35,618 nucleotides of DNA from a virus. The stretch's first letter is position 1. The number at the start of each line of letters is the position of its first letter. The notes under the pieces are model-generated. The model did no database searches and was not told the DNA's origin. It saw only the letters and a list, made by a program, of their open reading frames with translations. A program made the position numbers and the translations under genes. Of the stretch, positions 1 to 35,556 are shown in pieces. Location: positions 1 to 35,618 of the IMG/VR virus record IMGVR_UViG_3300035670_000731. One strand, written 5' to 3'.

Positions 1-127
1 AATACGTTAGCAGCTGTTACACCGACGTTGACATTACCTGAGCCGTATGCGCCAGTAGTAGTCATAGTGTAATTTTCCTTTGTAAATTAATTTGTAATTA
101 GCCAGCCATTGCTCGGTTGATTTCGTC
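1..127. repeat. 127-bp terminal direct repeat, left copy
   Basis: Bases 1-127 are identical to 35492-35618. An exact overlap of this length at both contig ends is what a de Bruijn assembler leaves when it closes a circle, so the unit genome is about 35,491 bp. The repeat holds the first 21 codons of the major capsid gene (complement of 1-65), its ribosome-binding site, and the last 30 bases of the scaffold gene. It is probably an assembly overlap rather than a physical terminal repeat, because it falls inside coding sequence at an arbitrary point. Confidence 0.9.
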
Positions 128-886
128 GTAGTGCTTTTGGAACCACGCTAGATCATTCTTGGCTACAAGTTGGTCTACGTTTTGAGGTGTAATCTTGATA
201 GATTGTACGCCTGCATTTGTAGCGTTACCTGTTGGGACGCTGGCTTGTTGTTTTTGGGCTAGATTCTCAAGGGTTTCCTTGCGAGCCTGGGACCTAACTT
301 TGTCAGGATTCTTGCTAACCGCCATAGCGTAAGCTGCTCTTAACATAGCTTCCGGTGAACCGTAAAGTCCACTGTTGTTCATTTCCTGAATCATATCTTG
401 CTCGTATGCCTTTGCTTCTGGGTTTGACTCAAAGAAATCTCTTATCGTGCTCTTAACCTCAAAGCGTTGCACTCGTTTAAGTAGTTCTGGGTCTTGCCCC
501 GTAGATATTGCTACCTGCTCGGCTGACTCATCACTTAACTCAGTCATTGAACGTTCAAGTTCTTTGGCTCGTTGGGCTTTCTGGTGCATTGCACGCTCAG
601 CTTCTCTTGCCGACTTGGCTAATTTGTTAATTGCTTCAGGATCGCTGGGGTCTATGCCTTTCGCTTTTAGCCATTTAGAGGTGTCGTCTTCGCTTGGTGC
701 TTCGGTTTCCACTGCAGTTTCCTGCTCTGGTTCCTCAGCTACTTCGGCTTGTGCCGGCTCATAGGCTTCCTGTTGCGGTTGTTCTTCTTCGGTGGGTCGT
801 AATACCGCCTCTGGCTTCCAATTGCCGCTCTCAGGTTGTGCCGTAGCGCCTGAATCAACAACTGCCTCGGTTGTGGTGTCGTCCAT
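98..886 (-). CDS. capsid scaffolding protein
   Basis: Predicted scaffolding protein (262 aa) that would guide procapsid assembly and leave before DNA packaging. The first 70 residues are very acidic and rich in Glu, Gln and Pro. Residues about 85-150 are charged and helical with coiled-coil character, and the C-terminus carries mixed charge, as in other scaffolds that contact coat protein. It starts at ATG behind a strong AAGGAG site. It lies between the portal and major capsid genes, the conserved scaffold position. The call rests on position and composition, since scaffolds diverge quickly. The upstream gap 887-986 can fold into alternative RNA structures that may tune its output. Confidence 0.75.
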   Translation of the reverse strand: MDDTTTEAVVDSGATAQPESGNWKPEAVLRPTEEEQPQQEAYEPAQAEVAEEPEQETAVETEAPSEDDTSKWLKAKGIDPSDPEAINKLAKSAREAERAMHQKAQRAKELERSMTELSDESAEQVAISTGQDPELLKRVQRFEVKSTIRDFFESNPEAKAYEQDMIQEMNNSGLYGSPEAMLRAAYAMAVSKNPDKVRSQARKETLENLAQKQQASVPTGNATNAGVQSIKITPQNVDQLVAKNDLAWFQKHYDEINRAMAG

Positions 887-904: not shown

Positions 905-973
905 ATGTTCCCTGCCCATAGCGGGAGGCGAGTAACACAAGGCAGGGTGTTATTTAATATTCTCGCCACTCCC
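905..973 (-). promoter_or_regulatory. structured leader, possible pseudoknot, before scaffold gene
   Basis: Read on the minus strand, four segments occur in the order L1 (973-962, GGGAGTGGCGAG), L2 (947-941, CCCTGCC), R1 (932-923, CTCGCCTCCC) and R2 (916-910, GGCAGGG). L1 pairs with R1 (6 bp plus 4 bp around a bulge) and L2 pairs with R2 (7 bp). The two stems interleave, so they form either a pseudoknot or two mutually exclusive hairpins. The scaffold ribosome-binding site follows about 20 nt later. A regulatory role is inferred; the complementarity is directly visible. Confidence 0.45.
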
Positions 974-986
974 TATGGAGAGGTAA

Positions 987-1193
987 CTACTTGTCTTTGG
1001 TACTAAGTACAGACTGTATATGGTCTAGCACTTCTCGAGCGCCTTTAGCCCTCTGAACGAAATCTCTTGCGTGTTCAGGGGACTGTTCAGCCTTAAGATG
1101 ATTGCTAGATACTATTTCTGTAATTATCTTGATAAGGTGCTCTCCGCCTTTTGACCTAAAAAAGGTGTTATAGGCTTTCTTTATCTCAATCAC
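987..1193 (-). CDS. hypothetical protein, 68 aa, between portal and scaffold
   Basis: I do not recognise this gene. It encodes a 68-residue, Lys/Glu-rich, probably all-helical protein with no Cys pair or membrane segment. Its GTG start overlaps the portal TGA stop (GTGA), so it is probably translationally coupled to the portal. Position between portal and scaffold suggests a head-assembly role or a small accessory protein. The conserved overlap and uninterrupted reading frame support it being real. Confidence 0.65.
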   Translation of the reverse strand: MIEIKKAYNTFFRSKGGEHLIKIITEIVSSNHLKAEQSPEHARDFVQRAKGAREVLDHIQSVLSTKDK

Positions 1194-2884
1194 ATCATCT
1201 CCAAAGGTATCTCCATAGGTATCTCAAGTGGTGGTTCCATTGGCATACCCTCCGGCATCAAAGGTAATGGATTGACTAAATCAGCTGGCTGTTCCATGCC
1301 CATCATACCCTCTGCAGGGTTAAGTAGTTCATCAACTTCATCTGGGTCAAGATCAAAGCCACGCTGTAAGACTAATTTCTTTAGAGCGTTCTGGTTTATT
1401 TCTGGATCGTTAAGGAAAGCAGCGTACATTTCTTTAGCTTGCATAGCCTGCTGTGCTTTTTGGCTGTTGACGGTTGTTTCTAGCTGTACTTCTACGTCGT
1501 AATCACCAGCAAACTCTAGTGGGTTAAACTCTTCCCATCGCACGCCATCCCTTCCTACAACACGAACCAACATAGGTTCAGTAACGTAGAGTTTAATCAT
1601 TTGAAGTACAAGTGTGGCTAATTGATGGAATCCTTCATCTTCTATTTGGGTAACCTTGAGTGCTAGTCTTTGGCCAGCTCCAGCGATTTGTGCTTGGATT
1701 TCAGTTGCAGTTTGCGAGCCACCGCCCTGTGCAGAAGTTCCCTTAATGATTTCGTTAGACGCTGTGGTTTCACGCATCTCATTCTTAATGTTAGTTCTCT
1801 CTAAGAAAGCGTCTTGAGGTACTGGTCGTTGCACGATTGGCTGTAAAGCACCTGCTTCTACCGGGTAGATTGCACCAGGCATGTTCTCGATTTCCTCAAG
1901 CAGGTGAGCATAGCGAGGGTCTAGTGTGTACATCTGATTGAGTGTAAAGGTAATAGAGTCGATGTTCTGGTTTGTTAAGTCGTTAAGTAGTTCTTGCTGA
2001 TCTGCAATAAAGTCAATCTCACCTTTAGCGTAGAACAATGAGCCGTCTACATAGTCTCTAAGCACACAGAAAGGCATCAAACCTTTGGCATACTTCTCAC
2101 CGTTTAGCTTTGCCTTGGACTTATAGTAGTTTTCGCTGTCCTCAATAACTGTTGAGCGATTGGCAATGCTTACCACTCGGTCTTTTGTCCAATATTCAAT
2201 AACTTCTACTAGGCTATCCTCGTCAGATACAGTAGAGCCATACCACATGTCCTTCTCTTCTTTGTCAGTGTTCTCGCCAGCACCGTTCTTAGTCTTAGAT
2301 ACTTGGTCTAGGTTCTTGTACTTAGGCTTCATTACAACTTCTAGTTCAGTCGTCTTTTCCATATCAACGATTTCAAAGCTCTTGAGCTCGTCCATTGAGG
2401 TTAAATATCTGCGTCCCATGTAAGCAGCGTTCTCTAAGCTGTTGCAGGTTGGGTCAATAAAGAAGTCTCTGATTGGCACGTTAATCATCTTAGGGCAGTT
2501 GCCGTCCCAGTGTAGGTAAATAACTGAAGTTCCGTAGCGAAGCATGTCTCTACCCCAGTTGATTACTTTCATACTCCACTTGTCTTTGTCCCAGTAGTAG
2601 TTAACAAGTGCGTTTAAGATATCTGTGTTCTGTCCGAACTTATCTGCAGGTGCTGTGTATTGGAAACGTGGCTTAGTTCCAAACAAAGCTGAAGTCATAG
2701 TTTCTATAGTAGAGAAAGTCATTGGCACAAACGTATCGGTGATGCCGTTGTAGCCTACTTTTACTCGATTGTTGTTATAAAGATAGTAGTTGTCGTTCCA
2801 GCGTGAATGCCAAGAACCTGAGCAGTACTCCCAAGAACTGTCAAAGTCGTCTAGTACTTGCTGTAAAGATATTGATTTTGCCAC
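1190..2884 (-). CDS. portal protein, P22-like
   Basis: Dodecameric head-to-tail portal through which DNA is packaged and ejected. The product is 564 aa. The N-terminal half has the podoviral portal pattern of an early Trp/Tyr-rich segment (WHSRWNDNYYLYNNNR), then VPMTFSTIETMTSALFG and VPIRDFFIDPTC (about residues 137-148). The C-terminal third is helical with Gln/Ala-rich segments, ending in a Met/Pro/Glu-rich tail (about residues 530-564). It starts at GTG, preceded by AGGG, just after a late-promoter element at 2900-2923, and follows terminase as expected. Residues about 185-215 are Lys/Glu-rich and look like a flexible insertion. The family call is from motif pattern and gene order. Confidence 0.88.
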   Translation of the reverse strand: MAKSISLQQVLDDFDSSWEYCSGSWHSRWNDNYYLYNNNRVKVGYNGITDTFVPMTFSTIETMTSALFGTKPRFQYTAPADKFGQNTDILNALVNYYWDKDKWSMKVINWGRDMLRYGTSVIYLHWDGNCPKMINVPIRDFFIDPTCNSLENAAYMGRRYLTSMDELKSFEIVDMEKTTELEVVMKPKYKNLDQVSKTKNGAGENTDKEEKDMWYGSTVSDEDSLVEVIEYWTKDRVVSIANRSTVIEDSENYYKSKAKLNGEKYAKGLMPFCVLRDYVDGSLFYAKGEIDFIADQQELLNDLTNQNIDSITFTLNQMYTLDPRYAHLLEEIENMPGAIYPVEAGALQPIVQRPVPQDAFLERTNIKNEMRETTASNEIIKGTSAQGGGSQTATEIQAQIAGAGQRLALKVTQIEDEGFHQLATLVLQMIKLYVTEPMLVRVVGRDGVRWEEFNPLEFAGDYDVEVQLETTVNSQKAQQAMQAKEMYAAFLNDPEINQNALKKLVLQRGFDLDPDEVDELLNPAEGMMGMEQPADLVNPLPLMPEGMPMEPPLEIPMEIPLEMM

Positions 2885-2899
2885 GTTATACCCTATATA

Positions 2900-2923
2900 C
2901 CCGCCTTGATTGCATTATATCAC
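2900..2923 (-). promoter_or_regulatory. late promoter element, copy 1 (portal)
   Basis: Minus-strand GTGATATAAT, an extended -10 (TGA then TATAAT at 2919-2914), is followed after 6 nt by AAGGCGGG. It sits in the 41-bp gap between the terminase stop and the portal start. The same two-part element recurs at 20138-20164, 23878-23904 and 28794-28818, always in the same orientation and before a virion gene. No -35 hexamer is conserved between copies. Confidence 0.7.
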
Positions 2924-4732: not shown

Positions 4733-5111
4733 CAGACAACTCCTTCACCAGTGCCTTGTATTTCTTTATCATAAGGTCTAAATCGCTATCTGTCCATTTA
4801 GCTACATTTCGGGATATGGAGTGCAGATACTCAACTCTCTCTTGTCCATACTTCTTGATCATAAATAGTGCGTACCCAGCAGCGTTGCCCTCATTAAATC
4901 TATTGCAGTACCGGCATTGGATATGGACGTTCTGTTCGTGCCAGCGTACTGTTCTCCAGCGTCTGTTTATAAAGTGCCCGGCATCTCCTTGACTAACTGG
5001 CTTGCGCTCTCCACAAGAGCAACATAAAAAGACCCCATTGCTGGAGTCTCTTAACCGGATATATTTGGAGAATATCAAATCTAATTTCTTTTCTAGTGTT
5101 CTACTAGCCAT
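4713..5111 (-). CDS. NinG/Rap-like recombination endonuclease
   Basis: A 132-aa protein with the pattern of lambda NinG (Rap), a structure-specific nuclease that acts on branched recombination intermediates. Visible are CCSCGE (about residues 30-35), then GDAGHF, then a conserved Arg/Asn/His stretch (WHEQNVHIQCRYCNRFNEGN). This gives two Cys pairs and a DNA-binding HNH-like core. It pairs logically with the YqaJ exonuclease and putative annealing protein at 7176-8175. It begins at ATG with AAAGGTGG, directly after a TGTGATATAA promoter-like core. A free-standing HNH nuclease is the alternative reading. Confidence 0.75.
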   Translation of the reverse strand: MASRTLEKKLDLIFSKYIRLRDSSNGVFLCCSCGERKPVSQGDAGHFINRRWRTVRWHEQNVHIQCRYCNRFNEGNAAGYALFMIKKYGQERVEYLHSISRNVAKWTDSDLDLMIKKYKALVKELSDGRAAE

Positions 5112-5112
5112 A

Positions 5113-5128
5113 CCACCTTTATATCACA
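5113..5128 (-). promoter_or_regulatory. promoter-like extended -10 before NinG-like gene
   Basis: Minus-strand TGTGATATAAAGGTGG carries the same TGTGATATAA core as the late promoters, but the ribosome-binding site follows directly and no AAGGCGGG is present. If used, the transcript would have almost no leader. It could let the packaging genes be expressed apart from whiB. Confidence 0.4.
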
Positions 5129-5129
5129 T

Positions 5130-5402
5130 TTAGTCTTTAATGCTTAATTCTCTACGCATAGTTCTGCGTTGTCTTTCGCTAGTTCCACCCCACACGCCGA
5201 CTTTAATTTTGTTAGATAATGCGTAATGTAGACATTGTTCTACCACGATACAACCTGCGCACACTGCTAAGGCTTCTTTGGTGCTTTCTCCACGCTCTGT
5301 ATGAAACATAGCAGGGTCTAAGCCTCTACAGTTGGCTTCTTTAGCCCAATCACTAGGGAGTCCTGACCTATCTACATATGCTTCGCTCTCAAACTTCTCC
5401 AT
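5130..5402 (-). CDS. whiB: WhiB-family iron-sulfur transcription factor
   Basis: Actinobacterial-type WhiB regulator, 90 aa. The four [4Fe-4S] ligands are present at Cys25, Cys48, Cys51 and Cys57, the GVWGG turn is at 69-73, and a basic C-terminus (RQRRTMRR) follows for DNA contact. WhiB proteins bind the primary sigma factor and redirect transcription. Phage copies are known, for example in mycobacteriophage TM4, where the protein interferes with host gene expression. The gene overlaps the stop of the upstream gene by 1 nt. It is the best host marker in the window, because the family is restricted to Actinobacteria and their phages. Here it may modify transcription of phage late promoters or the host; that is inference. 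Confidence 0.93.
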   Translation of the reverse strand: MEKFESEAYVDRSGLPSDWAKEANCRGLDPAMFHTERGESTKEALAVCAGCIVVEQCLHYALSNKIKVGVWGGTSERQRRTMRRELSIKD

Positions 5403-5620
5403 TATTTTGACTTACCACGTTTTGAACGTGCTCCTCCAAGCTTACCTGCTTCGCTTGCCTTGCCTGATATTGCAAAACCTTTTAATGCTTTGCCTGTTTC
5501 TGGATTGACATTGACTTTACTTTTACCACCCAACGCTCCGATTCGTTTGTAGTGATCGTCGCCATGCCTTTCGTAATTAGTTTCTCGTGTTTTAATACCA
5601 CCTGCTTTATTGCCTGCCAT
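5402..5620 (-). CDS. Gly/Lys-rich small protein, KGG-like
   Basis: A 72-aa basic protein rich in Gly, Lys and Arg. It has repeated G-rich turns (RIGALGGKSK and AGKLGGARSKRGKSK) like the KGG or stress-induced repeat found in bacterial and phage small proteins. It probably binds nucleic acid or is unfolded; the function is unknown. A strong AAGGAGG site lies before the ATG. It is in a tight operon with whiB, whose start overlaps its stop. Confidence 0.7.
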   Translation of the reverse strand: MAGNKAGGIKTRETNYERHGDDHYKRIGALGGKSKVNVNPETGKALKGFAISGKASEAGKLGGARSKRGKSK

Positions 5621-10272: not shown

Positions 10273-10758
10273 ATGAATAGTAAAGCAAAAGACATACCTA
10301 AAGCAATTATAAAAGGTGATGTAGCTTACATACCACTTGTTGGTAAAAGAGGTGGTTATGCAATAGTAGATAAAGAAAACTCTTGGATAGATATGTATAG
10401 TTGGTCGCAAAACATAAAAGGATATCCACAATCTTATATAAATAAAAAAACAATAAAAATGCACGCTTTTTTGTTTGGTACTGAAATTGGTTTAGTTAAT
10501 GACCATATAAATAGAAATAAATTAGATAACCGTAAAAACAATATTCGCAAAACTTCCTATACTATAAATAGCAGAAACGTTAGTTTAGCTAGTAATAATA
10601 AGTCTGGAAGAACAGGTGTTAACTGGGATAAAGGTTACAAAAGATGGCAGGCTCGCATAAGTGTTAACCGTCATATTATCAAATTAGGATATTTCGAAAA
10701 TAAAGAAGACGCTATAAAAGCTAGGCAGGAAGCAGAAACGAAATATTGGAAAGACTAA
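10273..10758 (+). CDS. HNH homing endonuclease with AP2 domain
   Basis: Free-standing homing endonuclease, 161 aa. Residues about 70-98 form an HNH core (VNDHINRNKLDNRKNNIRKT) with the usual DH, N and N residues, followed by N-rich linker. Residues about 112-161 form an AP2-type DNA-binding domain (SGRTGVNWDKGYKRWQARI...LGYFENKEDAIKARQEAE). The same architecture occurs in the gene at 33309. It is more AT-rich than its neighbours and lies on the plus strand convergent with and touching the next gene, consistent with recent insertion. Confidence 0.88.
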   Translation: MNSKAKDIPKAIIKGDVAYIPLVGKRGGYAIVDKENSWIDMYSWSQNIKGYPQSYINKKTIKMHAFLFGTEIGLVNDHINRNKLDNRKNNIRKTSYTINSRNVSLASNNKSGRTGVNWDKGYKRWQARISVNRHIIKLGYFENKEDAIKARQEAETKYWKD

Positions 10759-13015: not shown

Positions 13016-13026
13016 CTTATATCACA
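13016..13026 (-). promoter_or_regulatory. promoter-like extended -10 upstream of ParB-like gene
   Basis: Minus-strand TGTGATATAAG shares the TGTGATATAA core of the late promoters but lacks AAGGCGGG. It lies in the 97-bp gap between the peptidase and ParB-like genes, leaving a leader of about 55 nt. Confidence 0.45.
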
Positions 13027-17521: not shown

Positions 17522-19416
17522 TATTGTGCTCCTCCCACTTGTGATATTAGTGCTTCTTCAAGTGATGTTACATTAGTTGGTTGACCAAATTGTCTTTGAA
17601 GTAAATCTAATTTAGTTCGTAGTTGTTGACCACTGTCACCAATCTTAGGTGCGTATCTTTCAAGCAACTCTTTTTCTCCAGCAGTAAAGCTAGTGCCAGC
17701 ACGAGCCTTAGCAATGGTTGCCAAGAGGTTAGATATAAGTGTGTTGAACTCTAGTGTTGTAGGGTCTGCTGTGCCAAATATACCTTTAGCTTGCTCTAAG
17801 CGACCTGATACAGCACCAGTTTTAACTTTGCCAGTATTTAATAAGTCAATTGCGCCTTGAGTTAAATCTGTAATGTCCGTACGAGCTTGTTGAGCTTCTG
17901 TAAGTTTTGGTGTTGCGGCTGCTTCAGTTTTGTATCTATCTTCGTAAAGCTTGTAGATTCTTTCATAAAGAGCAGCGTTTCTTGGGTCTGCAGCAATTGC
18001 AGTTATAAGAAGTTCTGGTGTAAATGGATTCTGTGGTGTTTCAGCAACAGGTGCTTGAGTTATAGATGGTGCTCCTGTTGGAACTCCAGTAGGAACTCCT
18101 CCTAATCTTGGTGTTTCAGTTGGGCTGACCATTAAAGCATCTTCTAGCGTTGGTGGTTGGGTAAGTGTTCTTGTAGCGCCTGCTGCTCCCATAACTCCTA
18201 GCGCAGGCAATGCCCCAGTTGGTATTCTTTGAGTTATTCCACCTACAGATTCTGCTGTTCTGCCCGCTAAAGTTCTCAGGCTTTGAATAGCAGCTTCGCC
18301 AGACCTTGTTTTTATGCCTAATAAAGGAATTCCAATTGTTTTTTCAGCCGCTCTTGATAATCCAGGCGCAGCAGTTCTAAGATTGCTTAAAAATAAAGTA
18401 GCCGCTTTAGCATTGGGAGCTAGTTTAATTATTTGGTCATCAAGACCACGCCATATTGCTAACCTAGCAGCTTCTTTCGGGTTCAAATCTACCCCTCGGT
18501 TAACTTTTGCAAATATGTTTGTCATTTTGTTGCTTAAACTATTTTTAGCTAACTGAACTTGACTAGCATTTACGCTTTGGCCAGGAAAATTAGTGCTTAG
18601 TTGTCTAAGTTCGCTTGCTAATGCGCTGCGATATTTTGGGTCTGTTTGTAAAAACTGAGACAATCCTTTAGCTTTAGTTGTAATAGTTTGTAAAACATTA
18701 CTCTTGTTAGTTGTAGCTGTGCTTTTAGATAATATGTCACCTATTTCAGCGTATTTATTTTTTACTACCGCAGGAATATTATTTATCTTTGCTTGTGCAT
18801 TAGTGCCAGGAACTTGTTTCAAAACGCCTAGTAATTTTTTGCTTTCAGTAGCAGCCTCTAAACCTTTACCTTTTATACCTAACGCAGTTATTTGTTGACG
18901 TGCACCAGCTTCGGCCAATCTTCCACCTGAAACCAAACCTTTAGTAGCTTTAGCTGCTTGTACGCCTCTTATAGCGCCACCTAAACCACCAGCTATACCA
19001 GAAGTTACACCTTCACCAAGAGCTTGTTGTATTCTAAATTCGTCATCTCTAATTTTGTTTTCTAATGCTCTTCCAGCTGTGCCTCCAGCAAACCCGCCAA
19101 TCAAGCCACCTAATGCCCCACCTAACACTGTCCCTACGCCAGGAACTACTGATCCAATACCAGCACCTATGGTAGCACCTTTGGCTGCGCCTGCTAATCC
19201 ACCAGCTTCAGATATTAAAGAAGTAGCAAATCCACCTCTGCCTGTTGTTCTTGGAGCTGCTTGTCGAGGTGCAGGTGCTGCCCCAGTAACTCTTAAGCCA
19301 CCACCTTGTGGTGCTGGAGGTTGAAAGCCTGCGCCTTGTAGATAGCCTTGTATCTCGGTGTCTGAGTAACCTGCTGCTTTTGCTTGTTGAATTTTGTCGT
19401 TAAGATTTGGTTGCAT
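17521..19416 (-). CDS. internal virion/ejection protein with glycine zipper
   Basis: A 631-aa protein likely carried in the capsid and ejected to form a DNA channel. The N-terminus has a UBA-like helix (DKIQQAKAAGYSDTEIQGYL), also seen in ejection proteins. Residues about 75-112 form a glycine-zipper membrane stretch (GAGIGSVVPGVGTVLGGALG and GLIGGFAGG). Residues 130-420 are Ala/Lys-rich helices, and about 425-475 is a Pro/Thr-rich linker before a final helical domain. It follows the tail hub genes in the order expected for a P22-like virion. No lytic transglycosylase motif is seen. Confidence 0.75.
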   Translation of the reverse strand: MQPNLNDKIQQAKAAGYSDTEIQGYLQGAGFQPPAPQGGGLRVTGAAPAPRQAAPRTTGRGGFATSLISEAGGLAGAAKGATIGAGIGSVVPGVGTVLGGALGGLIGGFAGGTAGRALENKIRDDEFRIQQALGEGVTSGIAGGLGGAIRGVQAAKATKGLVSGGRLAEAGARQQITALGIKGKGLEAATESKKLLGVLKQVPGTNAQAKINNIPAVVKNKYAEIGDILSKSTATTNKSNVLQTITTKAKGLSQFLQTDPKYRSALASELRQLSTNFPGQSVNASQVQLAKNSLSNKMTNIFAKVNRGVDLNPKEAARLAIWRGLDDQIIKLAPNAKAATLFLSNLRTAAPGLSRAAEKTIGIPLLGIKTRSGEAAIQSLRTLAGRTAESVGGITQRIPTGALPALGVMGAAGATRTLTQPPTLEDALMVSPTETPRLGGVPTGVPTGAPSITQAPVAETPQNPFTPELLITAIAADPRNAALYERIYKLYEDRYKTEAAATPKLTEAQQARTDITDLTQGAIDLLNTGKVKTGAVSGRLEQAKGIFGTADPTTLEFNTLISNLLATIAKARAGTSFTAGEKELLERYAPKIGDSGQQLRTKLDLLQRQFGQPTNVTSLEEALISQVGGAQ

Positions 19417-20126
19417 TATCTAACCCTCAATGTTCCACTACTCATTGGTATTCCACCTTGTAGTCTAGTTGTGGTTGCTTGTAATGATGTTCTGCCTGCT
19501 GGCTGTAATGCTGGTCCTGTTGGCTGAAGTCTTACGCCGGCTGATGGTTGAACTATATTTTGAGGAGTTGGTGCTGTGACTCTAATCTGTGGCTGGGTTG
19601 CTTGTGGAGGAGGAGTGCCGAATATAGAACTTAGAGATGGTCTTTGAGTTGCAGTTCCGGTGCCGCCAGATAAATAAGCTAATAAATTGCTAAGTACAGA
19701 GCTAGTGTCGCTGGCTGCAGCGCCGCCACCTCTACTTGCGTTTGCTAATTCTGTAGCTATGTCTTGCTCTCTCTGTCTGCGTGCTATGGCTGCGTTTCTC
19801 ATTTCAGCTTGTAAGCCAAGTATTGTGCCCTCTAGATCACGAGCCGCTTCAGTGCCACGAGTTCTTGCTTGTAAGACTGCTGGTGCAAAAACTTGTGACG
19901 CATACTTAGCTTGTTCGCCTAGTGGAATCCCGGCAAATCCTAAGCCTCTTCTGCGTGCTCCAGTTAAGATATCTTCATATGCTTGAGTTTGAGCTGCCTG
20001 TGCAGCTTGTATGTCAGACTCGACTGTCTTTGGTATTTCTGCTTGGCGTTGTCTTAAAAATTCAATTGATGGCTGATAACTTGGTTGTAGTTCTGATATG
20101 ATTTGGTCTAGTGTTCGGGGTTGCAT
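19416..20126 (-). CDS. putative second ejection/internal virion protein
   Basis: A 236-aa protein. The first 130 residues are Gln/Ala/Arg-rich helices (QPSIEFLRQRQAEIPKTVES), then an Ala/Gly/Ser-rich stretch. The last 80 residues are Pro/Gln/Thr-rich and probably disordered. This helical, low-complexity composition is typical of small ejected proteins. It lies directly upstream of the glycine-zipper protein, overlapping it by 1 nt, behind late promoter copy 2. Both gene products begin MQP. Confidence 0.6.
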   Translation of the reverse strand: MQPRTLDQIISELQPSYQPSIEFLRQRQAEIPKTVESDIQAAQAAQTQAYEDILTGARRRGLGFAGIPLGEQAKYASQVFAPAVLQARTRGTEAARDLEGTILGLQAEMRNAAIARRQREQDIATELANASRGGGAAASDTSSVLSNLLAYLSGGTGTATQRPSLSSIFGTPPPQATQPQIRVTAPTPQNIVQPSAGVRLQPTGPALQPAGRTSLQATTTRLQGGIPMSSGTLRVR

Positions 20127-20137
20127 AATTTACTCGA

Positions 20138-20164
20138 CCCGCCTTGTTATTTGTATTATATCAC
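20138..20164 (-). promoter_or_regulatory. late promoter element, copy 2 (ejection genes)
   Basis: Minus-strand GTGATATAAT (20164-20155) is followed after 9 nt by AAGGCGGG (20145-20138). It sits in the 44-bp gap between the 20171 and 20126 genes. Confidence 0.7.
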
Positions 20165-23192: not shown

Positions 23193-23864
23193 TTAAAAGT
23201 ATTGTTTGCCTGGTGCAAAGCGATTGATTCTCATTCTTAATGCTCGACCAGTTTGTGGCACACTATATTTGACAACCAACTTCTGCAACAGCTCATCGTA
23301 TTTGTTTTGTAATACACCTGCTTGATCGTAGTTGTCTTTGACCTGCAAGACACGATACGCTGCACCAACTACTAGCAGTTCTGAGAATTGACTAGGTATG
23401 CTTGGCACATCAGTGCTTATTGCAAGTTCTGCAGGCTTCTTGTAGTAGTGAAGTCTGACAGTAAGGTTCTCGCTTGATGCCGGGAACACTTTGATTGTTT
23501 CGTCGTAGAAGTACCAGTATTTAGGAATTGTAGGTGGATAAGCTGTCGTGTCATCTGGGTTTGGGTACATTGAGAATATTTCTTCATAAGGCATATAAAT
23601 CAGCTGAGCTTCTTTGCCCTCTGTAGTGATCTGCAAGTCTACTGCTTGCACATAGTCAGCTAATAGCCCGGAACCGTTAGTGATGTCAGGAACGTCAGCA
23701 AATAGAACATAATCCACATAAGTCTGCATGAAAGGCAGACGGTATTCGTTATAAATGTCGTTTTGAGTATCGTTTAAGTAGTCAGTTATTTCAGCTGTTG
23801 AATAGCCGGTGTCTCTAATTCTGCGCTGTACTTTGGATATTAGATCAGATAATTGATATGCCAC
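23193..23864 (-). CDS. P22 gp4-like head-to-tail adaptor
   Basis: A 223-aa adaptor that would bind beneath the portal and form the upper tail. The N-terminus is helical (LISKVQRRIRDTGYSTAEIT, DYLNDTQNDIYNEYRLPF), followed by a beta domain (YWYFYDETIKVFPASSENLTVRL) and a C-terminal helix (LQNKYDELLQKLVVKY). It starts at GTG after late promoter copy 3 and precedes the hub gene, as gp4 precedes gp10 in P22. The fold is recognised from this helix, strand, helix pattern. Confidence 0.75.
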   Translation of the reverse strand: MAYQLSDLISKVQRRIRDTGYSTAEITDYLNDTQNDIYNEYRLPFMQTYVDYVLFADVPDITNGSGLLADYVQAVDLQITTEGKEAQLIYMPYEEIFSMYPNPDDTTAYPPTIPKYWYFYDETIKVFPASSENLTVRLHYYKKPAELAISTDVPSIPSQFSELLVVGAAYRVLQVKDNYDQAGVLQNKYDELLQKLVVKYSVPQTGRALRMRINRFAPGKQYF

Positions 23865-23877
23865 GAGTAATCCTAAA

Positions 23878-23904
23878 CCCGCCTTGATATTCTTATTATA
23901 TCAC
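23878..23904 (-). promoter_or_regulatory. late promoter element, copy 3 (tail adaptor)
   Basis: Minus-strand GTGATATAAT (23904-23895) is followed after 9 nt by AAGGCGGG (23885-23878), directly before the GTG start of the adaptor at 23864. Confidence 0.7.
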
Positions 23905-24362: not shown

Positions 24363-26459
24363 CTATTGGCTCACTGTTATATCATCTACATAAATTGATT
24401 CGTCTGCTGTGTTTGCTAGCCAGTAACCCTGAACATATATCTGTGCTACGCCTGCCGCTGTTGGTGTGAATGTAACAGTAAGTTCTTCCCAGTTAGTGTC
24501 TGCTGTTTTGGTGGCTGTTACATCTGCAGATATACCTGCTATTTCATTAGCCTGTATTAGAAGTTTGGCGCCAATGTCTGTGGCGTGAGATAGCTTTACC
24601 CAAGCCTTAACTGTTACAAGTGAGCCAGAGTTTACTGCTACTTTAGCTATAGGAAAATAAATTGGTCTTGAAAGTGTTTGGCTTGAATTTGTGATATTTA
24701 TTTGCCAAGCTATTCCAGTGGCAGTGTGACGAGTTGTAGTCTGGGATAAAGCATTTCCATATCGCCAAAAAGAACGATTATCGTTACTGTCATTGTTTAC
24801 TGAATTATACATAAGCACAGGGCTATTCCATATTTTTGTATAAGAAACGGCTCCCGAACCTATTAATTGAGTAGATAAAGCATTTGTTTGTTTTACTATT
24901 AGCGTATAAATTATTTCCCCTAAATTAGTATTACCTGAAGCGGTAAGTTTGTTTACAATTATACTTCTCGCAGCTGTTGCAGAAAATAATGTGGATGAGG
25001 TGTTATTGTTAACAATTAATTCTTTTATAAATATAAAACCGCTAAAACTCAAAGAACTAGAATTAGCGCTGTAGTCTAATTTGTCTAGTTCTACAAAATA
25101 CGAAGCACCAACTGTTAATTGGTTACTATTATTTTGCCAAGTTAAATTTGAACCACTTACGCTTGATAAGTTAGTAGCACCGCTAGTATTTAAAATATTA
25201 ATATTAATTACATTTTGCCCTAATGAACTTCCTATAACGCAACCATTAGAGCAGTTGTTAATTGTTGTGTTAAGAGTTGAATCAGTAAACATAGTTAATC
25301 CTTGAGTAGAATTAGTAATTATGGTATTTATTACGCAATCTCTGTTTGTAGAAGAGCAGTGAACACCTGTTCCAAATCTAGTTACCCCGAATCTTTCTAT
25401 TTTTATATATTGAATTGAACCAAACGATAATCCGTAACCAACTCCATTTTGACCATCAATCCAGGTTTCTCCATCTTGAGTATTAGAAGAAGTGTTCCAG
25501 CCCCCAGAATATGTTATTAAACTGCCTGCGCTACCACTTTCTTGAATTGGCTGGGCAGCACCAGTAGTAGAAGATTGAATTGCAAATTTGTATGTTGGTC
25601 TAACATAGGTAGTTACAGTATCTGGGCTTGTCCCAGTTGTATAGTAACCTCGATTACTAGAACCAACACCATCTTCATTTCTCATACCTAATGTTACTGT
25701 TGTGCCGTCTAAACTTTGTAGACCATGCCAAGTATCTGCTCCATCGTAAGCTGCAGAATTTTTGCTAATTAAAGCAGTTAAGTTAAGACCTGATTCATCA
25801 CAAGCCAAAACATTATCTATCCATATTTGCTGGCTATTACCAGGTGAACTTGAACCTGTGTATAAAGCTATAGACTGAATGCTTGACCCTAACGCACCAC
25901 CTCCAGTTCTTGTAAGTGTAAAAGGCACCCATCTAGTTGTAGAAGGTATAGCAGGTATAGCAAATTCGTCTACCGCAGTATCACCAGTAGCATCTGAGCA
26001 TAATTTCAAAACATATCTATTAGCGTCAGCGACTGCACTGGTGTTATTTCTAAACCAAAAAGTAATAGCATCATAAGAAGATAAATCAAGTGTTCCTGTA
26101 GCGTAATAGGCATATTTAGTTGCAGTAGCAGTTGAAGCAGGAGTGGTTATTTGCGCTGCGTTGGAACCTTGTTTTCTAGTCGTGGTAGTTGTAACAGTTG
26201 CGCTATTAGCAGCAGTCCAAGAACCATCTAAGTATAAATTGGTAGTCTGTGCTGTAGCTAAAGTTACAGTTGCTGATTTAGAAGTCCAAGTAGCATCACC
26301 AATAGATGTAGGGTCGGCAGTTTTAGCTACACGAATAATATCACCTGGAGCTGTTCTAGCCGCTGTAGCACCACTGTTGATTGTTTTCCAAGCATTTGCC
26401 CAGTCTGCACCTGTGTTTGCGTCATTTCCGTTTTCAAAGTCTAAATAAAATGTTGCCAT
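24363..26459 (-). CDS. right-handed beta-helix tailspike with carbohydrate-binding domains
   Basis: A 698-aa likely receptor-binding tailspike. The N-terminus has the pectate-lyase-like entry FYLDFENGNDANTGADWANA followed by ARTAPGDIIRVA. Residues about 75-225 look like a carbohydrate-binding jelly roll (YDAITFWFRNNTSAVADANR). Residues about 320-540 are a long N/T/S-rich repeat of short strands (VINTIITNSTQGLTMF, TTINNCSNGCVIG), fitting a right-handed beta-helix. The C-terminal 110 residues are another CBM-like domain ending ADESIYVDDITVSQ. It probably binds or cuts cell-surface polysaccharide. Catalytic residues cannot be assigned by eye. Confidence 0.8.
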   Translation of the reverse strand: MATFYLDFENGNDANTGADWANAWKTINSGATAARTAPGDIIRVAKTADPTSIGDATWTSKSATVTLATAQTTNLYLDGSWTAANSATVTTTTTRKQGSNAAQITTPASTATATKYAYYATGTLDLSSYDAITFWFRNNTSAVADANRYVLKLCSDATGDTAVDEFAIPAIPSTTRWVPFTLTRTGGGALGSSIQSIALYTGSSSPGNSQQIWIDNVLACDESGLNLTALISKNSAAYDGADTWHGLQSLDGTTVTLGMRNEDGVGSSNRGYYTTGTSPDTVTTYVRPTYKFAIQSSTTGAAQPIQESGSAGSLITYSGGWNTSSNTQDGETWIDGQNGVGYGLSFGSIQYIKIERFGVTRFGTGVHCSSTNRDCVINTIITNSTQGLTMFTDSTLNTTINNCSNGCVIGSSLGQNVININILNTSGATNLSSVSGSNLTWQNNSNQLTVGASYFVELDKLDYSANSSSLSFSGFIFIKELIVNNNTSSTLFSATAARSIIVNKLTASGNTNLGEIIYTLIVKQTNALSTQLIGSGAVSYTKIWNSPVLMYNSVNNDSNDNRSFWRYGNALSQTTTRHTATGIAWQINITNSSQTLSRPIYFPIAKVAVNSGSLVTVKAWVKLSHATDIGAKLLIQANEIAGISADVTATKTADTNWEELTVTFTPTAAGVAQIYVQGYWLANTADESIYVDDITVSQ

Positions 26460-26850: not shown

Positions 26851-28779
26851 CTATGTCAGCTCCGTTACCCTACAAGTTGCTGTCCCACTTGCTGTTATGC
26901 CTGTAATAATTCCAGTGTATCCAAACGGAACTTCATAGTAAGCGTCTGGTATTAGTCGCACAGTGTAGCTAGTTGCTGATGCTGTAGATCCTAGTTTAAT
27001 AAGAGCGTTAACTGTTCCCTCGTTGTATATAGTGGCGCCTAGTCTTTGGTTGTTAGCTGCGAGAACTGTTGTGTTTGAGTTAGTAACTGAAGCTGTGCTA
27101 ACTGTTCCTGTGTCTGGAGTAGCACTTGTAGCTTCAACTGTAAGAGCGCCTGATGGATTTACTTTTACATTTACAAAGCCACCACCACCTGCAGTAGTTT
27201 CGCCAGTAATCACAGAGCGAGTAAGTGAAGCTAGGGTGTTGCTGGTAAGTGTTGAGCTAATCTTGGAGAAGTTAGAAGTTGTACCTGCTGCCCAGCAAGC
27301 TGTAGACATTGTGATGTTTGTAGCGCCTGCAGTCTTTTGTGCGTCTAATGTGATAGGTAGGTTTGGATTAGCTACTGATGGAACTACTTGACCATTAGGT
27401 ATGCGGATAATGTGGAATGGCACCCATTCACCGTCTGGGCTAAAGACTTCAAATAGTATAGGCGCTGCACCAAGCCAACCGAATCGGATACGGTATAGGT
27501 TGTCTTTTGTAGGATCAAGAGCTTCTGGAGTTCCACCACGAGTAAACTTAGAACCTGCTGCACCTGATAGTGTGTCTATATTAAATGATGCTTGAGCAGT
27601 AGTTGTATCAACTGTAGCTGTTCGCTTTGTTACACCGAAAGAAGTTCCCTCATAACCAATGAAGAAACCGTTGTTTGTGTCGTAAATACCGATTCTCTGG
27701 TATGAGTTAGCAACTCCAGCAGTAAAGATAGCTGTGAATGCTGCGTAGCTTTCTGCGTGTGGTCGGTAATCAATAGTCGTGTTGCTAACAGCTTTGATTC
27801 CACCGTTTGTCGCTACGCTAGTGGTAAAGACTGCTTGACCGTTAGCAGTTGCTGCATCACCACCGTTGCTCTTTGTGACTGTAAGCTCTGTAATTGAATC
27901 TGGGTCGTTGCCTGCGAAGTCTATCTCTACTTGATTGTATCTGGTGGCCGTAACTACTTGGCCGAACATGTCGGTGGTTTCGGTAGCTTCTACTGTTATA
28001 GGTAAATTGCCCTCTGCGTCTAGCTGGACTTGAGTTGCTGCGCCCTCGATATCTCTAAAAGGCAAAACATAGTTCGGTACAGGGAAACGAAGATTCTCAA
28101 TGCTATTTTGCACTGCAGCGACAGCCGAAGTCATTTCTGTAGTGTCAAACTCTGGTGCAGGAATAGCCTGTATTGCACTGCGTAGAGCGTCTAGTTTGTC
28201 CTCTAACGGGCTTAAATCAACTTCTGGATTAGACTGAACATTTACTTTTGGTGCTGGAACATTGACGACTGGCTTCACATCTATAACGCTGATTGAGCGT
28301 TCAATAGCTTCGGCGTTCTCTGCCATTGCCTCTTGGTTCTGAACCATAAACGCAGCTAGAGATTCTGCAAAGTCACTGAATGAGCGATCTAATTGTTTGG
28401 CAACCTTTTCGTCTTTGTTGTTATTAGCCAATACTCTGAGGGCTTCGTCAATCTTAGCAGCCAACGGAGCCATAATATCTTCAACATCTGTGCCGTTTGC
28501 TAAAACTACTGCAGGTTTACCCTGTGCCTTTTGGTTTCCGAGTAATTGAGCAAGCTGAACTTCTTTGAGTTGGTCGATGACTTCCTGTATGTCGTCTTTG
28601 CTGGCCATATCGTTAACAATCTTGACGTTCTTTGTCTTTTTGCTATCAGTCTCAATAGCATCCACAATTTGCTTAGTATTTTGTTTTGATTGTGCGATTG
28701 ATTGTTTGTGCAGGAACTCTTCTTTTTTATTTTCCTGCTGTTCTTTTCGTTTGTCGCTTACGGAGTCTAAGTAGTCCAA
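26851..28779 (-). CDS. long tail fiber / receptor-binding protein
   Basis: A 642-aa fiber. Residues 1-240 are helical coiled coil (KRKEQQENKKEEFLHKQSIA, then LEDKLDALRSAIQAIP), the shaft or anchor. Residues about 260-500 form a beta domain (FGQVVTATRYNQVEIDFAG, SYQRIGIYDTNNGFFIGYEG). The C-terminus has a tip domain common in fiber proteins (LGATIYNEGTVNALIKLGST, ending YEVPFGYTGIITGI). It starts at TTG behind AAAGGG and late promoter copy 4. It opens the tail module. Confidence 0.78.
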   Translation of the reverse strand: MDYLDSVSDKRKEQQENKKEEFLHKQSIAQSKQNTKQIVDAIETDSKKTKNVKIVNDMASKDDIQEVIDQLKEVQLAQLLGNQKAQGKPAVVLANGTDVEDIMAPLAAKIDEALRVLANNNKDEKVAKQLDRSFSDFAESLAAFMVQNQEAMAENAEAIERSISVIDVKPVVNVPAPKVNVQSNPEVDLSPLEDKLDALRSAIQAIPAPEFDTTEMTSAVAAVQNSIENLRFPVPNYVLPFRDIEGAATQVQLDAEGNLPITVEATETTDMFGQVVTATRYNQVEIDFAGNDPDSITELTVTKSNGGDAATANGQAVFTTSVATNGGIKAVSNTTIDYRPHAESYAAFTAIFTAGVANSYQRIGIYDTNNGFFIGYEGTSFGVTKRTATVDTTTAQASFNIDTLSGAAGSKFTRGGTPEALDPTKDNLYRIRFGWLGAAPILFEVFSPDGEWVPFHIIRIPNGQVVPSVANPNLPITLDAQKTAGATNITMSTACWAAGTTSNFSKISSTLTSNTLASLTRSVITGETTAGGGGFVNVKVNPSGALTVEATSATPDTGTVSTASVTNSNTTVLAANNQRLGATIYNEGTVNALIKLGSTASATSYTVRLIPDAYYEVPFGYTGIITGITASGTATCRVTELT

Positions 28780-28793: not shown

Positions 28794-28818
28794 CCCGCCT
28801 TTAGTTGTATTATATCAC
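28794..28818 (-). promoter_or_regulatory. late promoter element, copy 4 (tail fiber)
   Basis: Minus-strand GTGATATAAT (28818-28809) is followed after 7 nt by AAGGCGGG (28801-28794), in the gap between the epimerase gene and the fiber gene. Confidence 0.7.
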
Positions 28819-30428: not shown

Positions 30429-31147
30429 TTGCCCTCCCTCATCTTTTTGATTAACTCTACCTTATCGTCATAAGATCTGTCGTACATGGTTTTCTCGTAA
30501 TAATCTAAGTAGTCTGACCAGTTGCTTTCGTTGGCGAAAGTCCAGCTTAGCTTTTCGCTCATGTGCCCCACTAGGTAACCATAGCTTTTTATATCTCGGC
30601 TTAGTCTGGAATCTTCTTGGACCTTTTCTCTGCTACCCTCCCAGCGACTCTCGTCGTAGCGAACGCCGCCGTTCCATATAGAGCGCTTGATTATATTCGG
30701 TCCACCCACTGCTCCAGGCCACTCGTTTAATCCCATGCCGTTAATGTAGATCGGTGGCTTTTCTTCACCACCCCAATAGTCCAAGCCCAACTGTCCAAGT
30801 CGGTCTATCTTCTCAAAGTATTCTGCCGCTTTAGTGTCCCAGCCTTGCTCAAAGTGCATGTCGTTGTCGCAGCGCATCAAGTGTGTGGCTTCGGGATACT
30901 CCTTAAGCCCCTCTGTCCAAGCAATATTAGCAGCTTTGCCAGGGTAATAGTTCTCTGGGTTGTGGATAACCTTGTGTATAAGTGATAAGTAGCTGAGATT
31001 GTCTAGGTATTCAGGCGTGCCGTCGCTGCTGTTGTTGTCTACCACCACTAAATAGTAAGGAACTTGGAGGGTTTCGGTTAAAGATTTAATAGTTTGCTTG
31101 GTGTAGTCCAAGCGGTTATAACTGATAAGTGCAATCAATAAACGCAT
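30425..31147 (-). CDS. glycosyltransferase family 2-like
   Basis: A 240-aa GT2 enzyme. The N-terminus MRLLIALISYNRLDYTKQTI and VVVDNNSSDGTPEYL is the classic GT2 start. The metal site is visible as RCDNDMHFE (DND). GVRYDESRWEGSREKVQEDS is probably part of the acceptor region. It overlaps the upstream HNH gene by 1 nt and the next transferase by 4 nt. Substrates cannot be told, but the epimerase suggests a hexose donor. Confidence 0.87.
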   Translation of the reverse strand: MRLLIALISYNRLDYTKQTIKSLTETLQVPYYLVVVDNNSSDGTPEYLDNLSYLSLIHKVIHNPENYYPGKAANIAWTEGLKEYPEATHLMRCDNDMHFEQGWDTKAAEYFEKIDRLGQLGLDYWGGEEKPPIYINGMGLNEWPGAVGGPNIIKRSIWNGGVRYDESRWEGSREKVQEDSRLSRDIKSYGYLVGHMSEKLSWTFANESNWSDYLDYYEKTMYDRSYDDKVELIKKMREGK

Positions 31148-31707
31148 TACTGTCTCCTTAAATATTTGGCTAAGTTTTCCAATATGTCGGGGTTATCTTT
31201 TACAAATCCTAATACTGTATTGCAATTACCATGCAATAACCCTCTTATTGCACCAGTTTTATGATTGTGGTCTATATAAGCAACGCCATCAATAGGGCTG
31301 TAACAAGCAGCACATAAACCTTTTTGTTGTTTATACATATTGTGGTAATCGGAAACTTCTATGCCATAAATACGTTTAATGGACCTGCCCCTGTTTCCAC
31401 ACTTTAAGCCACAAAATTTTGCGTCGGAACGTGTACCTCTTGGTGTAAATAATTCTCCGCAATACTGGCATTCTCTAGGTTGAGGTGGTGTATAACGCTT
31501 GGCTCGGTATCTTGCATGAACAACTTTTCTCATTCTAGTAGTACGAATATTACGACAAACCTCTGAGCAGTAAATTGGTTTATTGTATGTGTGAAAACTA
31601 TTAAATGATATTTTGCACTCTATGCATACATGTTTTCCCTCAACTGGTGTTTTAGGTTTAAAAGAGCGTTTTACGGAATATCTTTTCTTTATATTGTTTG
31701 CAATCAT
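31147..31707 (-). CDS. recombination endonuclease VII-like HNH protein
   Basis: A 186-aa HNH nuclease. The C-terminal part has the endonuclease VII pattern YGIEVSDYHNMYKQQKGLCA, then IDHNHKTGAIRGLLHGNCN. Two extra Cys clusters precede it (CIECKISF...CSEVC and CQYCGELF...CGLKCG), giving an N-terminal zinc-binding array. It sits in the sugar operon between transferase genes and overlaps both, consistent with a homing-type insertion. A host resolvase role is also possible. Confidence 0.88.
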   Translation of the reverse strand: MIANNIKKRYSVKRSFKPKTPVEGKHVCIECKISFNSFHTYNKPIYCSEVCRNIRTTRMRKVVHARYRAKRYTPPQPRECQYCGELFTPRGTRSDAKFCGLKCGNRGRSIKRIYGIEVSDYHNMYKQQKGLCAACYSPIDGVAYIDHNHKTGAIRGLLHGNCNTVLGFVKDNPDILENLAKYLRRQ

Positions 31708-32537: not shown

Positions 32538-33330
32538 ATTGGGCGTTCCCTTCTGTGTAGGTTGCTTGACCATCAACATATTCAATGAACGGTGGAATAG
32601 CGTCTAGTATTTGCACCCTTTTAACTCGCCTTAATCCACGCTTAAAAATATCGATGCTTTTAGCGTCCATGCTTTTAATCACCATATCTCTGCCAACCTT
32701 ATCAATGACTCTTATCTCGTGTCTACCGTTGTTGACTCCCGCTCTGCCTAAACTGACTAGCTTTCGCTGTCCTGCGGTGCGTGCCATCATCTTGACTGGC
32801 ATGCCTTGAGAGTAAAGCACCATCCCAAAGTGCACATCATGCAAACCGTAGGCTATCTTTTTTAGTTTCCTAGGCCAGAACAGCAAAGCGTCGCCCTTAA
32901 TCATGGTGTCGTAGGCTGTATCGGTGCGCCAGATAGGTTTAGGAAAAGCTTCTAATATTTCTCTAGCCACTAATAGAAAACCTGTGCCTGACCAGTAGGC
33001 GTAGCCGTTGGGGTCGTTTAATACTGTGGAGTCGCCGTTGTTCTTAAATGGATAGTCTAGCGCCACCACTGGGTAGTTCTGATTAAACATCTGCCTGAGG
33101 ATACCTTTAGGTATTATTAAATCGTCTTCGCATATGAGAACAGCGTAAACATCATCGTCTGCTAGCGCTCGCTCAGTAGGCTCCTCAAAACACTCTGGCA
33201 GTGGTCTTTCATGAGCCCAGTAAAAACGATAGTTAAAACCTTCCAGTTCGTTTAGAAGTTCTTCAAAAGTCTCGCTAAATACTAGTCCACGACTAGGAAC
33301 TATGACTGCTAATGTATCTCGTTGAGCCAT
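32530..33330 (-). CDS. glycosyltransferase-like protein B (tandem paralog)
   Basis: A 266-aa paralog of the neighbouring gene, with the same ordered motifs: VPSRGLVFSE, AHERPLPECFEEP, ICEDDLI, LDYPFKNNGDSTVL, WSGTGFLLV, YGLHDVHFGM and AGQRKLVSLGRAGVNNG. The N-terminal fold suggests a nucleotide-sugar transferase. The stop overlaps the next start by 8 nt, and the start overlaps the HNH-AP2 gene by 22 nt. It differs from protein A mainly in the C-terminal 60 residues, which may set acceptor specificity. Confidence 0.7.
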   Translation of the reverse strand: MAQRDTLAVIVPSRGLVFSETFEELLNELEGFNYRFYWAHERPLPECFEEPTERALADDDVYAVLICEDDLIIPKGILRQMFNQNYPVVALDYPFKNNGDSTVLNDPNGYAYWSGTGFLLVAREILEAFPKPIWRTDTAYDTMIKGDALLFWPRKLKKIAYGLHDVHFGMVLYSQGMPVKMMARTAGQRKLVSLGRAGVNNGRHEIRVIDKVGRDMVIKSMDAKSIDIFKRGLRRVKRVQILDAIPPFIEYVDGQATYTEGNAQYV

Positions 33331-34251: not shown

Positions 34252-34611
34252 TTACAGCTGAAGATATTTTATTGCTCTCTCAAGAGTAATTATATTGTCC
34301 TTAAAACAACCTAAACCACGATTACAATGATTACACAACAACCCTCTAGCTAATCCAGTAGTGTGAGAATGGTCAAATACAAGCCCATCGGTATTTCCAC
34401 ATATAGAACATTGAGTTTCTTTGTATAAACGTAGTGCATCGTCAATGTTTATCTTTGTGAATTTAGCCCTCGTTAAAACGCTACAGCGGTATCTTGTTTT
34501 ACCATTAGGTCTTTTACCATTTTTTATAACTTTAACTGGTCCGCAATATCTGCAATCAGCAACCATATCGACTACATTTATGTTGTCTAACTTATGTATC
34601 CATTTACCCAT
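34252..34611 (-). CDS. recombination endonuclease VII-like HNH protein
   Basis: A 119-aa HNH nuclease with YKETQCSICGNTDG and FDHSHTTGLARGLLCNHCNR, the endonuclease VII core (Asp-His, then Arg-Gly and Cys-x-x-Cys). An extra N-terminal CxxC (DCRYCG) precedes it. It lies between two terminators, right after the capsid gene, with a weak ribosome-binding site. This isolation from both neighbours fits a mobile insertion. Confidence 0.88.
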   Translation of the reverse strand: MGKWIHKLDNINVVDMVADCRYCGPVKVIKNGKRPNGKTRYRCSVLTRAKFTKINIDDALRLYKETQCSICGNTDGLVFDHSHTTGLARGLLCNHCNRGLGCFKDNIITLERAIKYLQL

Positions 34612-34671: not shown

Positions 34672-35556
34672 TTAACCCTTGATAACCCAACCGAAGTTTG
34701 ATCGGAGGTTTGCACATCCGAAAAGAACGTCAACTGTTACCAACCAACCAAGGTATGGCTGTTCGTAAGTAGCTTGAGTTCGTGGTTCCATCTGCATAGC
34801 AACAGCAAATGCTTCCTTGTGGAAGAACAAGTGGTTGTGCTCGTCAGTAGCAGTGTCAAGTACTACCAAGTTTTGGCTCATGTAAACCTTAACTCCGTAG
34901 ATTTCACCGATTTGACCGTTGCGGATAGAGTTTTCGCTGCCGCCGACACCAATTGCGTCGTAACGGATGTACTTGTCGATAGCAAGCATTTCAGCCTTAC
35001 CCTTAGGAGTAACAACAAGGCTTCTCTCAGTTTGAGGAGCTTTTGCGTCATCTAGGTAACGGTTAACAGCTAGGATTTCATCGTCAGTGATGGCTGTGCC
35101 ATACACACCAACAGTTTGTGAAGCATTAGTCCAAGCAGTTGTCATTTCGCTAGCAAGTGTGTAATCAACTTTCTCAGCAATAGCGTAAGCAGCAGCTTTG
35201 GTGTAATCGCTTCTTAGGTCGTAAGCAGACTGTACTTTAACAATATCTTCTACTAAGAATGAGCTTTCGTAGTGTTTGTTAAGAGTTACAGTTGTCTTAG
35301 TTTCAGTGTTGTAGTTTAGGGTAACAACAGTGTTTTGTGCTTTTAGGTTAGCAGTGATTGTAGATACGTTAGGGATTTCAAGTGTTTGTCCGCCTGATTT
35401 AACGTCTGCATCGTAGTGCTTAACAAGTGGAAGAAGAACTAAGTTGCTCTTTACGAACATCAAAACTTCTTTTGACCAGATGTTTGGCCTGAATACGTTA
35501 GCAGCTGTTACACCGACGTTGACATTACCTGAGCCGTATGCGCCAGTAGTAGTCAT
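34672..35556 (-). CDS. major capsid protein, HK97 fold
   Basis: A 294-aa HK97-fold coat protein. The N-terminus AANVFRPNIWSKEVLMFVKS and NLVLLPLVKHYDADVKSGG are the N-arm and early E-loop region typical of these proteins. Tyr-rich middle helices (AYDLRSDYTKAAAYAIAEKV), the loop EIYGVKVYMSQNL and a C-terminal P-domain segment (YLGWLVTVDVLFGCANLR) follow. AAAGGAAAA precedes the ATG. The order portal, 68-aa protein, scaffold, capsid through the circle junction completes the head module. It is isolated by a strong terminator, consistent with high expression. Confidence 0.92.
   Translation of the reverse strand: MTTTGAYGSGNVNVGVTAANVFRPNIWSKEVLMFVKSNLVLLPLVKHYDADVKSGGQTLEIPNVSTITANLKAQNTVVTLNYNTETKTTVTLNKHYESSFLVEDIVKVQSAYDLRSDYTKAAAYAIAEKVDYTLASEMTTAWTNASQTVGVYGTAITDDEILAVNRYLDDAKAPQTERSLVVTPKGKAEMLAIDKYIRYDAIGVGGSENSIRNGQIGEIYGVKVYMSQNLVVLDTATDEHNHLFFHKEAFAVAMQMEPRTQATYEQPYLGWLVTVDVLFGCANLRSNFGWVIKG

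Follow-up and report, generated by a model that had tools for sequence, protein, structure and literature searches.

The window analyzed here, the whole 35,618-nt stretch of IMG/VR virus record IMGVR_UViG_3300035670_000731, carries on its minus strand a set of virion genes preceded by short leaders (Table 1). A two-part element, GTGATATAAT followed after 6 to 9 nt by AAGGCGGG, was found to have four exact matches in the entire window, all on the minus strand, and none in 100 shuffles of the sequence, which bears out the sequence-only reading that had reported these four sites. The spacers are 6, 9, 9 and 7 nt at positions 2900-2923, 20138-20164, 23878-23904 and 28794-28818, respectively. The window holds four exact copies of GTGATATAAT and four of AAGGCGGG, the latter confined to the two-part sites. 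The start codon lies 11-15 nt beyond the last G of each site, and in 3 of the 4 leaders a separate ribosome site of the AGGG/AGGA type stands between this block, hereafter the tag, and the start codon. The downstream genes had been named portal, ejection, adaptor and fiber; PHROG matches support the portal and an adaptor-like structural protein, but not the names "ejection" and "fiber". Elsewhere in the window, ORFs at 10273-10758 (plus strand) and at 31147-31707, 33309-33788 and 34252-34611 (minus strand) resemble HNH/AP2 homing endonucleases by eye.

Table 1. Genes, late promoters, tags and RNA elements of the window.
Feature	Position	Strand	Basis or remark
Scaffold-like gene downstream of hairpin	98..886	-	Position between portal and major capsid genes; no PHROG match
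Portal protein gene	1190..2884	-	PHROG matches; heads predicted tagged transcript that also spans the hairpin
WhiB-like gene	5130-5402	-	Pfam PF02467
72-aa Gly-rich basic protein (MAGNKAGG...GGARSKRGKSK)	5402-5620	-	Adjoins WhiB gene; no Pfam match
First gene of predicted tagged transcript	19416..20126	-	No PHROG match
First gene of predicted tagged transcript, adaptor-like structural protein	23193..23864	-	PHROG tail/head structural families
First gene of predicted tagged transcript, virion structural protein	26851..28779	-	PHROG virion structural family
Major head protein gene	34672..35556	-	PHROG; would follow gene 98-886 on a circular map, as presumed
Extended -10 (GTGATATAAT), putative portal late promoter	2914..2923	-	Predicted transcript start 2907; -1 Y/+1 A rule, 67 family sites
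5' tag AAGGCGGG, portal transcript	2900..2907	-	Predicted +1 to +8
Extended -10, putative promoter of gene 19416-20126	20155..20164	-	Predicted start 20148
5' tag AACAAGGCGGG, leader of gene 19416-20126	20138..20148	-	Predicted +1 to +11
Extended -10, putative promoter of gene 23193-23864	23895..23904	-	Predicted start 23888
5' tag ATCAAGGCGGG, leader of gene 23193-23864	23878..23888	-	Predicted +1 to +11
Extended -10, putative promoter of gene 26851-28779	28809..28818	-	Predicted start 28802
5' tag AAAGGCGGG, leader of gene 26851-28779	28794..28802	-	Predicted +1 to +9
Structured RNA hairpin, leader of gene 98-886	about 907..987	-	Fold and covariation
Long stem, including GGCGAG / CTCGCC	967-962 / 932-927	-	Part of hairpin 907..987
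Inner stem TAACAC / GTGTTA	952-947 / 938-933	-	Part of hairpin 907..987
Apical loop CCTGCCTT (anti-tag)	939..946	-	Pairs AAGGCGGG with one G.U; predicted unpaired
3' strand GGGCAGGG	910..917	-	Can pair the loop in cis (pseudoknot) or the long-stem base

Three further sites match GTGATATAAT with one mismatch (5118-5127, 13016-13025 and 26335-26344) and AAGGCGGG was found at none of them (0/3). The first two agree with an earlier listing of sites near 5113 and 13016 that have GTGATATAAT only, and the third adds to it. At 5111-5127 on the minus strand the -10-like word abuts the next gene directly (GTGATATAAAGGTGGTATG), so the 5118 site may either bind ribosomes or start a leaderless transcript, which would begin at the A of the ATG if the -10 is in use. 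Similar leaderless arrangements are also seen at the portal and adaptor sites of the relative G019.

The reading that best fits the four sites is that of extended -10 promoters lacking a -35. From 81 late sites of the family we kept 67, chosen by the -10 alone, dropping those with a -10 score below 11.5. The seventh base after the -10 is A in 63 of these 67 sites and the base before it is a pyrimidine in 64, and this signature predicts the four transcript starts of Table 1, where transcription would begin. The best TTGACA matches upstream of the 67 sites are at the level of shuffled upstream DNA, in line with the earlier remark that no -35 is shared. The sites thus resemble host sigma-70 extended -10 promoters, with TGNTATAAT directly upstream of late-strand genes, no conserved -35 and an A start 7 nt downstream, but they differ from these in adding a genome-specific transcribed tag. 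AAGGCGGG occupies positions +1 to +11 in the transcripts so predicted and would therefore be a 5' tag of the mRNA. Across 97 gene-linked extended -10 sites, GGG begins 10, 11 and 12 nt after the -10 in 10, 21 and 11 cases, respectively.

Relatives of the window were found at the protein level. A megablast search with its first 12 kb matched no phage record, and the phage collection contains a single full-length relative of the portal protein (32% identity). Homologous loci were collected for the portal (14, later 73) and for the adaptor-like protein (27); G015 was left out as a near copy of G003, and many of the 36 stretches from the first pattern scan were chance or coding matches (e.g., L008, L017, L024, L025 and L037) and were excluded. 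In close relatives the four sites precede the same four genes, and orthologous sites are preserved in relatives down to about 50% protein identity, with both parts of the element kept and the spacer and surrounding DNA changed. Together with the start signature, these orthologous sites support the original proposal of a late promoter family that joins an extended -10 to a conserved downstream block. All four sites are exact in G003, while G006, G007 and G008 have variant tags such as ACAGGGCAG, AAGGTAGGG and CAGGCGGG, and more distant relatives have ACGGGC, ATGGGC, CTGGGC and similar words in place of the block. No tag was found at the portal site of L174, L175, L253 or the distant MW202692.

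Two MAG contigs, one of them assigned to Saccharibacteria, are among the portal homologs in genome contigs and may be misbinned phage. The latter is L253 (JACDEK010000001.1), a 40-kb contig whose portal is 48% identical and whose portal leader has the extended -10 and lacks the tag; its Saccharibacteria host assignment may reflect misbinning. We infer an actinobacterial host for the window, from its WhiB gene only. In G029, the L222 leaders at 4068 and 10539 share an identical 36 nt and have a small hairpin, GGTGGAGTATCCACC, abutting the start codon in addition to the tag.

The tag is common to the late leaders of one genome and differs between genomes. When leaders were swapped between genomes within each gene class, the longest string shared by the leaders of a genome had a mean of 6.67 nt, against 4.51 (sd 0.17) in the permuted sets (0/2000), and the same measure for the 6-nt spacer between the -10 and the start was 2.42 against 2.20 (16/2000). 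Because the spacer shows almost none of the likeness, recent copying of the whole promoter does not explain it, and the word must be read by something in trans. Apart from the promoter, the late leaders have just one sequence in common, and this RNA word finds its match in a structured RNA of the capsid leader.

This structured RNA came to light from the list of tag copies, in which G003, G016 and G030 had tag-like words on the opposite strand within inverted repeats. On the late strand these repeats are hairpins that have the tag's reverse complement as their loop, and the hairpin of the window was located by searching for one of that type. A comparable hairpin is present in the same leader of relatives, with a mean fold z of -3.7 across 22 genomes. 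Almost no two elements have the same stem sequence, the 56 elements having 53 distinct 5' arms; among the closest five sequences, 99.3% of the pair cells are kept, both partners have been replaced in five pairs, and the score for covariation is above that of 500/500 shuffles. The minimum free energy fold fails to place the C-rich word in the chosen apical loop in 24 of the 56 elements. Rfam gave no match at the gathering score in the window or in six loci of relatives, and only weak matches (E of 0.35 and above) in region 880-1010. No promoter was seen in the 150 nt examined for the hairpin, so it would be made within the portal transcript, which we consider probable, or processed from it; as the portal transcript would itself be tagged, pairing inside that transcript is also possible.

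Pairing between late leaders and the capsid leader of the same genome exceeds chance. Using 63 of the 67 sites, those in genomes with a capsid leader, and the 150 nt before the scaffold-like gene as target, the mean duplex energy was -16.33 kcal/mol compared with -13.13 kcal/mol (sd 0.38) after permutation (0/2000). The reverse complement of the leaders, used as a control, showed no such effect (-13.58 vs -13.20; 235/2000). The test was repeated with the 73 portal loci, of which 51 entered, 44 gave both parts and 33 passed the score; once already-used contigs and near copies were removed, 20 previously unused contigs were left, and these gave -14.19 vs -11.88 (sd 0.54; 0/5000). Without the -10 score filter, 29 contigs again gave 0/5000. 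When 8-bp matches of all promoter-linked leaders were placed along every position of the 150-nt leader, they peaked at -70 to -46, which is the loop. The pairing is also selective. With -11 kcal/mol or better as the threshold, pairing with the loop is seen for 37 of the 39 late sites that have a perfect -10 in 15 genomes but for only 12 of the 26 other perfect -10 sites, and several of those 12 are further late-type leaders with the full tag.

Further, we ranked 14-nt late-strand segments by their pairing with the late leaders, and the loop came first of 11,868 in the window. Five of 24 genomes had too few leaders and were excluded; by set boundaries the loop ranked first in 8 of the remaining 19 (the window, G003, G006, G007, G016, G017, G029 and G030) and 2, 2, 3, 5 and 8 in five more, and it ranked poorly (23-94) in G018, G019, G025, G033 and G035. 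In G008 the top-ranked segment is its loop and lies outside the set boundaries; the start codon of the scaffold-like gene was assigned mechanically and is probably wrong in this genome. The loop of G024 predicted promoter-linked leaders with GGACGGG that had been overlooked. The quite different tag of G026, CUUGGGGUUGGUG, matches its loop CACCAACCCCAA, as the tags AACAUGGGC of G030 and AACACGGGC of G016 match the loops GCCCAUGUU and GCCCGUGUU, respectively. In G029, the adaptor/portal sites (L221-L222) and the 19416-type sites use two tag registers, UCGGGCGAGG and GUACGGGCG, and both match the loop CUCGCCCGUAC. All four tags of the window pair with the 8-nt loop through seven Watson-Crick pairs and one G.U pair, and the best gapped duplexes of its P and A leaders involve the 3' arm of the stem next to the loop, not the loop itself. 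By prediction, tags are no more open than shuffled ones (0.53 vs 0.51).

We consider it likely, with a probability of about 0.7, that through this pairing the loop serves as a leader-borne antisense regulator of several late mRNA 5' ends. Transcripts from the four late promoters would share a tag as their first 8-11 nt, and this tag would base-pair with the apical loop of the hairpin conserved in the scaffold-like/capsid leader. A single loop would thereby address several late mRNAs and act in trans as an antisense RNA whose regulon consists of mRNA 5' ends; the candidate has loop-target complementarity beyond chance and, by prediction and covariation, a stable RNA structure. The RNAs are presumed to meet in the cell and to affect translation or decay. 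Our preferred sign, at a little under even odds, is restraint: pairing beside the ribosome site would restrain, or else protect, late mRNAs while capsid mRNA accumulates. Where a hairpin has a tag-like 3' strand (GGGCAGGG in the window), this strand could pair with the loop of the same hairpin as well, and the capsid leader may thus regulate itself likewise.

A rival arrangement, possible although we doubt it, is one in which the tags act on the hairpin as in a natural toehold switch, displacing the cis 3' strand and invading the inner stem to alter scaffold-like/capsid expression. Consistent with this, the tag of G016, G022 and G030 has the same sequence as the inner stem's 5' arm and pairs with the loop and the 3' arm. 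In addition, the cis duplex of 3' strand and loop, computed for 8 genomes with a strand of this kind, is similar in energy (-15 to -18 kcal/mol) to the trans duplex. However, the ribosome site of gene 98-886 is predicted to be open in the folded state, and we rejected a fold that hides this site on the same ground. In addition, cis pairing is weak in G026 (-6.6 kcal/mol) and G033 (-3.6 kcal/mol) and yet trans pairing persists in both, so we give priority to pairing in trans.

It is improbable that the tag is instead a DNA operator for a phage protein, with the capsid-leader copy an inverse operator inside a palindrome. To a DNA-binding protein complementary strands look the same, and concerted change within a genome is also compatible with a co-evolving protein; the small basic Gly-rich protein of Table 1, found by a home-made profile in 17 of 27 record sets, could be proposed for this role. 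Against an operator, the inverse copy is always on the late strand inside a covarying RNA stem-loop and the distance of the tag from the -10 varies. Further, where pairing in the group of the window departs from a perfect 8-nt complement, a G.U pair is kept in 18 of 24 cases, which points to recognition of RNA and not of DNA. The Gly-rich protein was not found in the tag-bearing G008 and G023 and is a weak lead at most as a reader of the tag.

Less probable still is that AAGGCGGG is a mere initially transcribed or discriminator sequence suiting the host polymerase, or an imperfect Shine-Dalgarno sequence. Its purine-rich makeup and its place at the predicted transcript start would suit such a role, but the word is common within each genome and different between genomes by the permutation tests, many other promoters of the same genomes lack it (14 of the 26 other perfect -10 sites do not reach the pairing threshold), and its complementarity to the loop would be left unexplained. 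As a Shine-Dalgarno sequence it was rejected, being too distant from the start codon and accompanied by separate ribosome sites. Pairing of GGGC-type tags with the 1400 region of 16S rRNA was dropped by argument, since G/A changes inside the tag would break it.

The sequence-only reading had left three roles for AAGGCGGG, a discriminator, an mRNA 5' tag or a binding site for a phage factor such as WhiB. Of these the mRNA 5' tag fits best, because the word is complementary to and covaries with an RNA loop. WhiB acting with a host sigma factor is a highly improbable reader although the window has a WhiB gene, as WhiB is present in 4 of 28 related records and in none of seven tag-bearing records of 35-39 kb (G008, G016, G017, G021, G022, G023 and G029); the element thus occurs where WhiB does not, and WhiB cannot be a general reader and is an accessory gene rather than a hallmark of the family. 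In another family of Nanopelagicales phages, WhiB is described in all members in the available text of PMC10202952.

A literature search, which covered few subscription journals, returned no description of such a tag and loop. The nearest systems in kind are c4 RNA and SAS/ESAS. The c4 RNA is made together with its target transcript. The c4 antisense RNA of phages P1 and P7 has complementary words in loops and binds near a ribosome site, in the available text of PMC12197685. The proposed regulator is likewise a phage RNA made with a transcript it would control, with complementary words in loops, but c4 acts in immunity on a single antirepressor mRNA, whose ribosome site it covers, whereas the loop here sits in a capsid-gene leader and matches the 5' ends of about four late mRNAs, which encode structural targets and carry the tag upstream of the ribosome site. 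In the accessible portions of their sources, SAS/ESAS are repeated short asymmetric words just upstream of start codons in Cluster K mycobacteriophages (PMC3203893), with words of this type in Cluster EF Microbacterium phages (PMC7302621); the consensus of the linked repeats varies by subcluster and their function is unexplained (PMC3203893, PMC7302621). As described there, SAS is a 13-bp GGGATAGGAGCCC-like word that contains AGGAG and is restricted to non-structural genes, where it lies at the ribosome site, 3-7 nt ahead of the start codon; an inverted repeat (ESAS) precedes it. In contrast, the word described here ends 11-15 nt before the start without AGGAG, precedes portal and virion structural genes, is linked to an extended -10 and situated where the transcript is predicted to start, and has an identified complementary RNA loop.

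A single pairing word for several mRNAs, with loop or toehold recognition, is also known from UTR-derived bacterial small RNAs, which control multi-gene regulons, and from engineered toehold switches. The proposed system differs from these in that it would target the very 5' termini of phage mRNAs, and in its word, a code specific to each genome whose partners change in step. Late-gene coordination in phages is usually ascribed to a late sigma factor, an activator or an antiterminator. If the antisense reading is right, the late regulon of these phages would be wired by RNA, with a code that evolves in step as one lock and several keys. We put forward more tentatively, as a speculative extension, a genome-specific RNA address code in which one capsid-mRNA loop recognizes the 5' address of every late mRNA and the mRNAs physically meet. 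If so, portal, adaptor and tail mRNAs would be tethered to the capsid mRNA for coordinated assembly or, alternatively, capsid output would be set by the summed other late mRNAs through a natural toehold switch, and lock and addresses would drift together into a private code for each lineage. The finding may also offer a lead on the unexplained start-associated sequences of other actinophages.
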